64,000 nucleotides of DNA, from the NCBI RefSeq assembly GCF_023746595.1, contig NZ_CP080572.1, positions 186,001-250,000 on the forward strand, in the 5' to 3' direction. The DNA is from Thermococcus argininiproducens (GTDB lineage: Archaea; Methanobacteriota_B; Thermococci; Thermococcales; Thermococcaceae). Position 1 is the first letter of the stretch; every line of letters begins with the position of its first letter. Positions 13,264 to 14,787 of the stretch are shown here, piece after piece. The position numbers were made by a program, and so were the translations under genes. Under the pieces are notes generated by a model. The model searched no databases. It was not told where the DNA came from and saw only the letters and a list, made by a program, of their open reading frames with translations.

Positions 13264-13307
13264 TTTTTATATGATAATATCGAAACTCGATATCGTGATC
13301 CGATATG
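13264..13307 (+). promoter_or_regulatory. PadR-MFS operon promoter with two overlapping operators
   Basis: A TATA box (TTTTTATATG, 13264-13273) is followed by ATATCG (13277-13282), five bases, CGATATCG (13288-13295), five bases and CGATAT (13301-13306). This makes two copies of the dyad ATATCG-N5-CGATAT that share their central ATAT. The last half-site overlaps the ATG at 13305. The site covers the expected transcription start, so a bound PadR dimer pair would block initiation. There is almost no leader, so the mRNA is probably leaderless. Confidence 0.75.
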
Positions 13308-13616
13308 ATGAGACGTCTCATTCTCGGCTTTATGGGTCTACATATTCTCCACCATGCAAGCAAAGAGCCTATAAGTGGAAGTTTTATGATGGAAGAACTC
13401 AAAAAACATGATTATAATGTCAGTCCTGGGACAATGTATCCCTTACTCCAAAAAATGGAGAGATTAGGCCTCTTAAAAAGCCACTGGGAAATACGAAATG
13501 GCAGGCGTGTTAGGTTCTACGAAATAACCCCCAAAGGTCTTCAAATGCTTGAAGAAGGAAAAAAGAGAATAAAAGAGCTCTGTATGGAGATCTTGGGTGA
13601 TCCACATGAGCAATGA
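13305..13616 (+). CDS. PadR-family transcriptional regulator
   Basis: A 103-residue winged-helix protein. The PadR pattern is clear: an N-terminal helix (ILGFMGLHILHHA), recognition region SPGTMYPLLQKMERLGLL and a wing followed by FYEITPKGLQMLEEGK with a C-terminal dimer helix. PadR proteins usually repress an adjacent transporter and release it on ligand binding. Here the gene overlaps the MFS transporter by 11 bp, so the two are cotranscribed. A second ATG at 13308 could also serve as start; the double operator overlapping the start region implies autoregulation. Confidence 0.88.
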   Translation: MMRRLILGFMGLHILHHASKEPISGSFMMEELKKHDYNVSPGTMYPLLQKMERLGLLKSHWEIRNGRRVRFYEITPKGLQMLEEGKKRIKELCMEILGDPHEQ

Positions 13617-14787
13617 ACAAAAGAAGATCTTTGGAATAAGCTGGAACGTATTCCTCCTTGGTCTTGTAAGTTTTTTAAATGACATGAGCAGTGAAATGAT
13701 AGCACCAATAGTCCCTACATATTTGACAGACGTTCTTGGGATTGGAAAGGCCATAAGTGGTTCAATAATGGGACTCATAGAGAGTTTAAGTTCACTATTT
13801 AAAGTTCTTTTTGGTTACATAAGTGATGTTTTTAGGAAAAGAAAAGTATTTGTTGCTCTTGGTTACCTACTATCAACAATATCAAAAGGTGCTTTAGCGT
13901 TTACACGCTCATGGTGGGATTTTTTAACTCTCAGAGTTCTTGATAGAGTTGGAAAAGGCATAAGAACGGCCCCTAGGGATGCCCTTATAGCTGAATCAAG
14001 TGAAAAGGGAAAAAGCGGAAGATCATTTGGTTTTCACAGAATGATGGATACTCTTGGAGCCGTGGCTGGACCATTAGTTGCAATAGGTTTGTTAGCTCTC
14101 CTAAAGAATTACCCAATACGAGTAGCATACCAATATGTATTTTTGCTTTCAGCCATTCCAGGTATTGTAGGCATCTTACTAGTGGTGTTTTTGGTTAAAG
14201 ACAAGGGTGAAGAGGTTAAGAAAAAGATAAAGGGAATATCTGCTCTTAAAAGCCGAAATTTGCGGATGTTCTTAGGGATAGTCGCTCTTGGGGCTCTTGG
14301 GAGATACAGCTATGCATTTACACTTTGGAAGGCTAAGGAACTTGGCTATTCTGTCGTCCAAGGTCTCGGGTTTTATGCAATTTTCAATGCAATTTATGCT
14401 TTCTCAGCATATCCCATAGGATACTACTCAGATAAGGTCAGTAAAAAAAGTATCATAACTCTTGGCTTCGGAGTAGCAGCCCTAGCTTCACTTTTATTTG
14501 CGTATTCAAAAAACCTACCTATGCTTTTGGCGGCATTCATATTTTATGGCGTTTATATAGCCATTGAAGACACAATCCCAAGGGCTTATATGGCAGATCT
14601 TGCAAAGGATTTTGAAAAAGGAACTGTGATTGGAGCGTATCATACCATTTTCGGGATCTTCGTATTCCCTGCATCAATAATAGTGGGTTATCTTTGGCAA
14701 GAGTATTCCCTTAAGATAGGCTTTCTCTATGCAGCAATCATTAATACCCTTGCCATGATATTGATGGTGAGCTTTGTACGGGACTAA
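13606..14787 (+). CDS. MFS transporter (drug/efflux type) under PadR control
   Basis: A 393-residue major facilitator with about 12 hydrophobic segments. The loop 2-3 signature region (GYISDVFRKRK) and the DRVGKGIRTAPRDALIAES block place it with the archaeal/bacterial 'MFS_1' efflux-like proteins that share this RxGKGxRTxPRDA motif. Start ATG 13606 lies inside the padR gene with GGTGAT as ribosome site. The operon suggests PadR senses the exported compound; the substrate is unknown. Confidence 0.85.
   Translation: MSNEQKKIFGISWNVFLLGLVSFLNDMSSEMIAPIVPTYLTDVLGIGKAISGSIMGLIESLSSLFKVLFGYISDVFRKRKVFVALGYLLSTISKGALAFTRSWWDFLTLRVLDRVGKGIRTAPRDALIAESSEKGKSGRSFGFHRMMDTLGAVAGPLVAIGLLALLKNYPIRVAYQYVFLLSAIPGIVGILLVVFLVKDKGEEVKKKIKGISALKSRNLRMFLGIVALGALGRYSYAFTLWKAKELGYSVVQGLGFYAIFNAIYAFSAYPIGYYSDKVSKKSIITLGFGVAALASLLFAYSKNLPMLLAAFIFYGVYIAIEDTIPRAYMADLAKDFEKGTVIGAYHTIFGIFVFPASIIVGYLWQEYSLKIGFLYAAIINTLAMILMVSFVRD

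Follow-up and report, generated by a model that had tools for sequence, protein, structure and literature searches.

The 30-bp double dyad at positions 13277–13306 of the window (the whole 64,000-nucleotide stretch of Thermococcus argininiproducens DNA analysed here) is probably, with a likelihood of about 85%, the operator through which a small Rv3488/ChrI-like PadR protein regulates its own gene, padR, and the adjacent transporter gene. As judged from sequence, the site has the two properties by which an autoregulatory operator is recognised: it covers the promoter of the padR–transporter pair, and it is conserved in orthologs. The comparisons established its position, its conservation, its tie to a PadR clade in Archaea and Bacteria, and its tie to transporter genes. 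The preliminary description had already read the site as a PadR operator, and this reading is supported by all 75 orthologous promoters, by a PadR gene in 61 of the 80 loci found with the motif, and by the motif in 47 of 49 PadR relatives from Bacillales and Thermoplasmatota.

Inspection of the window showed that the site reads ATATCG-AAACT-CGATATCG-TGATC-CGATAT. It consists of two 17-bp dyads with 5-bp spacers, both matching ATATCG-N5-CGATAT exactly: the left dyad ATATCG-AAACT-CGATAT (ATATCGAAACTCGATAT, 13277–13293) and the right dyad ATATCG-TGATC-CGATAT (ATATCGTGATCCGATAT, 13290–13306). The dyads overlap in the ATAT at 13290–13293, their centres are separated by 13 bp, and their common centre CGATATCG occupies 13288–13295. 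The two exact copies, the common ATAT, and the equal spacers had been noted previously and were all found as described. The extent given earlier, 13277–13307, was correct in its start and in the design of the site; however, the symmetric unit ends at 13306, and 13307 belongs to the start codon, as its third base. The placement of the site from just past the TATA box into the ATG was also borne out. A TATA-like box (TTTTTATA, 13264–13271, plus strand) with an A-rich BRE-like stretch 5' of it, both putative in function, ends 5 bp before the operator starts, and the final two bases of the right dyad are the first two of the padR start codon (ATG, 13305–13307). The predicted transcription start region, 13294–13298 on the plus strand, was derived solely from the distance to the TATA-like box that is usual between TATA box and start in archaea. 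The codon at 13296–13298, in the second spacer, is TGA; thus, padR starts either at the ATG at 13305 or at the next one, at 13308. The padR gene (13305–13616, plus strand) is overlapped at its 3' end by an MFS transporter gene (13606–14787, plus strand; MFS_1, 3.4e-59), which starts with GTG at 13597 or ATG at 13606 and is the presumed target within the same operon. A homolog of the transporter is present in 88 of 94 Thermococcales genomes.

The product of padR is a PadR protein of 103 amino acids (PF03551, E = 5.5e-15, 55.6 bits against a cut-off of 27) and is like subfamily 2 in having a winged helix and one C-terminal helix in about 100 residues. In the structure model (pLDDT 91.7), the protein adopts the small PadR fold, with helices at 2–20, 25–33, and 41–53, strands at 57–64 and 67–74, and a helix at 76–97. 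Its best Foldseek match and closest solved structure is Rv3488 of Mycobacterium tuberculosis (NF053635; PDB 5zhc/5zi8; TM 0.86, 42% identity; phmmer E = 1.1e-21). Nevertheless, the score of 108.5 bits with NF053635, the Rv3488 equivalog, lies below the cut-off of 140, so the protein is considered Rv3488-like and not an Rv3488. The mycobacterial relatives differ further in having weaker and more distant sites, and the open-access papers searched gave no operator sequence for Rv3488. The PadR family has two signature DNA-binding tyrosines, represented by Y28 and Y48 in the portions of the LftR report used here (PMC6457526). In the present protein, Y45 is invariant in alignment A3, and G25-S26 stands where paralogs read G-Y (mapping to LftR by eye).

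The motif is rare. Within the window, the two dyads are the sole matches at up to two mismatches (mean of 1.13 in shuffled sequences), and in the genome of 1,946,248 bases the exact pattern occurs only twice, both times at the padR start. Base composition predicts 0.2 exact single dyads and 2.6e-6 double dyads per genome. At up to two mismatches, the dyad pattern occurred at 59 places in the genome and the reversed-pattern control at 64, which means that matches of this quality are noise. Three dyads with one mismatch were found elsewhere in the genome, all within open reading frames and none before a padR-like gene. A one-mismatch dyad on the minus strand of L098 lies inside a reading frame that has a VANGILVSNC-like motif and appears intein-bearing.

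Conservation was assessed in the Thermococcales, where the PadR query P0001 matched 77 of 94 genomes. Alignment on the protein gave 75 readable promoters; the two left out were G012, which has a paralog only, and G010, in which a contig end breaks the region. All 75 promoters keep 16–20 of the 20 fixed bases (20 in 43, 19 in 23, 18 in five, 17 in three, and 16 in one), and the four orthologs without an exact dyad still score 16–17. Retention of the dyads in orthologous promoters had been named beforehand as a check, and no loss was detected. The centre CGATATCG is nearly invariant, with seven of eight columns conserved in 74 or 75 of the 75 promoters and the first C in 71; the right arm is strong and spacer 1 mostly loose. 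The left arm is the most variable part (A 64, T 69, A 67, T 75, C 74, and G 69 of 75), and in some orthologs it is damaged (e.g., AACTCG, GTTTCG) with the right dyad kept. In 72 of the 75 orthologs, the ATG occupies the same place in the right arm, and the start codon by itself dictates part of the conservation of this arm. The predominant sequence of spacer 2 is GTGTT. In 62 of the 75 orthologs, the spacer supplies an in-frame GTG nine bases 5' of the ATG; being near the predicted transcript start, this GTG could serve as a leaderless start in them. Columns -12 to -9 5' of the operator are T in 68–75 of the 75 promoters.

Across the 94 Thermococcales genomes, the exact single dyad was present in 72, at 116 places, 114 of which are padR promoters; the reversed-pattern control was present in three genomes. 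The two stray dyads lie in an open reading frame, within a region that looks CRISPR-associated (G051), and near a cas3-like frame (G068), both labelled by eye. In 13 genomes with the MFS gene and no PadR ortholog, the best score 5' of the MFS gene was 9–11 of 20, which is background. In most of these genomes, as judged by eye, the MFS gene lies close behind the thioesterase gene found 5' of padR in the window. Such an arrangement fits a joint loss of repressor and site; this support is weak because one deletion would remove both padR and the operator.

The exact 20-base pattern was then scanned blindly in 84,980 species (257 Gb), yielding 86 stretches against 0.23–0.34 expected; 80 were treated as loci, six of them from Thermococcus. 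A PadR frame was counted when its profile start lay between -50 and +250 bp from the operator centre and it read away from the operator. Such a frame was found in 61 of the 80 loci, with strong matches in 44 (E < 1e-20) and weak ones in 17 (about 1e-4 to 1e-8), compared with 753 of 20,000 positions drawn at random from these loci. The PadR-adjoining loci include Bacillaceae, Staphylococcus, Clostridia, Syntrophomonadaceae, Chloroflexota, Actinomycetota, Brevinematales, Thermoplasmata, and Nitrososphaera. Among the 19 loci with no PadR start in the given range, at least three are simple tandem repeats (L116, L132, L153), and in others the site is close to the end of the stretch (e.g., L159, L166, L171). 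In still others of the 19, the operator precedes an MFS gene with no padR nearby in Thermofilaceae (L108), and in actinobacteria it precedes an ABC ATPase gene (L113, L125) or chrA (L120, L142). Since a transporter gene takes the place of padR behind the operator in some genomes, the site is not merely part of the padR start. No exact double operator was found in viral contigs.

Several loci deserve separate mention. The genomes of L113 and L125 (G119 and G122, actinobacteria) carry two operator copies 1.3–2.4 kb apart, which suggests that transporter genes linked to padR are controlled separately there. In L169 (G133:C267:6579-6647), the region 5' of a PadR-chrA-like pair holds an array in which the 13-bp step is repeated over more than two overlapping dyads. 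The genome of Mageeibacillus sp. UBA5734 (G120, with locus L118) has 11 double-operator matches at up to three mismatches, several of them within a repeated GGACCGGGTCTCGATATCG context, which possibly represent a larger regulon or a mobile promoter element. In Mycobacterium lepraemurium, an exact double operator (L175:4451-4480) is found in a genome with no PadR match and may be a remnant or a chance occurrence.

The association was also examined from gene to motif. Among 199 genomes from the order to which Bacillus sp. NTK071 belongs, profile A3 matched 72, and the best 30 of these 72 were taken; among 292 genomes of the phylum Thermoplasmatota, it matched 19, all of which were taken. A site was accepted at 15 or more of 20 bases within 250 bp upstream, with the strand set by the profile. 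It was found in 29 of the best 30 Bacillales and in 18 of 19 Thermoplasmatota, at a nearly constant distance to the gene; no control stretch from these loci reached that score (0 of 300 and 0 of 174, or 0 of 474 together). A few of the loci overlap the motif-found set (e.g., L246, L273, L274). The exceptions are L288, a broken frame beside an exact left dyad running into Ns, and L251, which scores 14. In the genus Mycobacterium (118 genomes, 14 with a match, 15 loci), scores of at least 15 were reached anywhere in the locus in seven of 15, by sites that are often degenerate and hundreds of bases away, and in two of 300 shuffled loci. Archaeal relatives of the same class, G097 and G100, score 18 and 17. 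The weaker PadR relatives of the same phylum (L200–L203, E about 1e-18 to 1e-14) showed no operator, which indicates that it belongs to one clade and not to every PadR. A clostridial PadR group with 21–27% identity, located beside DUF2812 genes, also has the operator.

The proteins encoded downstream of the operator are mostly involved in membrane transport. Among 53 proteins scanned, comprising 50 next-downstream frames of the 61 loci and three frames behind operators with no adjacent padR, the domains were MFS_1 (19), ABC_tran (10), DUF2812 (9), chromate transporter (8), sodium/calcium exchanger (2), and TauE (1). The window MFS protein shares 34–40% identity (E at most 4e-51) with nine MFS proteins at operator loci of Thermoplasmata, Actinomycetota, Chloroflexota, Brevinematales, and others. 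A similar pairing has been reported in Bacillus cereus SJ1, where, according to the sections of PMC2936356 used here, the small PadR-like ChrI and the transporter ChrA1 are encoded in one operon induced by chromate, the transported toxic ion. That system differs from the window in its transporter, ChrA versus MFS, and the sections used give no operator for ChrI. The Bacillales PadR-chrA loci carry the double-dyad operator. Together with the transporter neighbours, the chromate induction of chrI-chrA1 makes it plausible that the ligand of the archaeal PadR is akin to the exported ion or compound.

Other described PadR systems share the regulatory logic and differ in the site. LmrR of Lactococcus lactis is a subfamily-2 PadR that represses its own gene and the drug exporter genes lmrCD with two dimers per operator; its operator, as quoted in the excerpts of PMC5428041 consulted, is ATGT-N10-ACAT and lacks the tandem CGATAT dyads of the window site. 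Autoregulation by subfamily-2 PadR beside a membrane protein gene, as in the window, is likewise described for bcPadR1 and LftR; however, their sites, as given in the relevant portions of PMC3506622 and PMC6457526, are degenerate ATGT/ACAT motifs or partial palindromes. The window site does not correspond to the canonical PadR operator ATGT-N8-10-ACAT, and the earlier statement that it is unlike ATGT-N8-ACAT was right by sequence, with the total lengths being similar (17 versus 16 bp). A second PadR type in Thermococcales (L194 in the same genome; L090, L091, L093, L095) also has a double dyad directly upstream of its start codon, built from GATAT half-sites. This second site, ATATC-N4-GATATATC-N4-GATAT, is more degenerate and has a step of 12 bp versus 13.

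In the proposed mechanism, one PadR dimer would fit each ATATCG-N5-CGATAT dyad, because the half-sites are 11 bp apart, or about one helical turn; a winged-helix dimer reaching successive major grooves is modelled in the part of PMC3506622 concerned. Other half-site pairings (the centre alone or the outer arms) do not suit a dimer. Two dimers, which might bind cooperatively as suggested earlier, would be displaced by 13 bp, corresponding to about 44 angstrom and 86 degrees (about a quarter turn), and would have the central ATAT in common; given the precedent of LmrR, occupancy by two dimers is likely. Archaeal repressors can act by binding downstream of TATA boxes. Lying just past the TATA box and running into the start codon, the operator would place bound PadR over the start-site region, where it would block RNA polymerase from the padR–MFS operon. 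PadR may be released on binding a ligand, which could be a toxic ion or small molecule that the MFS pump exports; the pump and the repressor would then be made.

The two dyads overlap by 4 bp, and the recognition helices of two dimers would approach within about 2 bp at the centre; simultaneous binding is therefore sterically uncertain, and alternate binding was kept as a rival. PadR would then occupy the operator with one dimer at a time, and the overlapping dyads would be alternative sites that raise local affinity or permit shifting. The 4 bp common to both dyads, the central half-sites only 2 bp apart, and the orthologs that retain the right dyad beside a damaged left arm all agree with this, yet we regard it as rather unlikely: the double dyad with its 13-bp step persists in distant PadR relatives, two 30-mers are perfectly palindromic, arrays of more dyads occur (L169), and LmrR binds one operator as two dimers.

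The readings that dispense with PadR binding fare worse. The location exactly between TATA box and start codon, and the in-frame GTG of spacer 2 in most orthologs, would suit a conserved core-promoter or initiator sequence of padR. This is very improbable, since only two of the 116 exact dyads in the 94 genomes lie elsewhere, as would not be expected of a general promoter element, both arms are inverted repeats, and the same site is present in bacteria with a different transcription machinery, and also before chrA, ABC, and MFS genes. The link between protein and site comes from comparison, and the operator might instead belong to another regulator travelling with padR; there is little to recommend this, because the PadR gene is the constant partner across phyla, while the neighbours vary (MFS, chromate transporter, ABC, DUF2812, exchanger). 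An RNA hairpin in the padR leader is fainter still: the dyads can be folded on paper, but the folding z-score is -1.67, 15 of 200 shuffles fold equally well, and most of the site is upstream of the predicted transcript start. The hairpin, the initiator element, and the unrelated regulator were accordingly rejected. Chance palindromes in AT-rich DNA have a negligible likelihood; dyads with two mismatches are indeed frequent by chance, but exact doubles are expected at 8e-8 per 64 kb, and the conservation in 75 of 75 orthologs refutes a chance origin.

Small PadR proteins are abundant, and to our knowledge few of their operators have been reported. Autoregulation by PadR is already known; the operator design, the fixed 13-bp double step, and the reach across two domains appear to be new, and the operator was described nowhere among the matches listed in the open PMC literature. 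The system looks like a very old, conserved switch for membrane pumps in many archaea and bacteria. More tentatively, and with odds somewhat short of even, one 30-bp operator with 20 fixed bases may have been kept by a PadR clade across the divide between Archaea and Bacteria, two transcription machineries, and changing ion and drug transporters, even in the distant clostridial PadR. Repressor, operator, and pump would then form a portable cassette, with the double dyad of 12- or 13-bp step being ancestral for small PadR and ATGT-N8-ACAT derived.

The textbook PadR motif does not fit the clade of the window PadR. An operator that is unchanged between Archaea and Bacteria offers a clean test of repressor action under each of the two transcription machineries, and could also tell whether a regulator travels together with its site. 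Owing to the high specificity of the motif, the regulons of many relatives can be found by DNA search alone, and this includes the padR that accompanies chrA on resistance plasmids of enterobacteria. On an Escherichia coli resistance plasmid (L195:2202-2231), an operator matching 16 of 20 bases, with the 13-bp step, precedes chrA, and padR follows chrA. This plasmid module adjoins IS6100 and mphR(A), and related padR genes are present in 1851 plasmid records.
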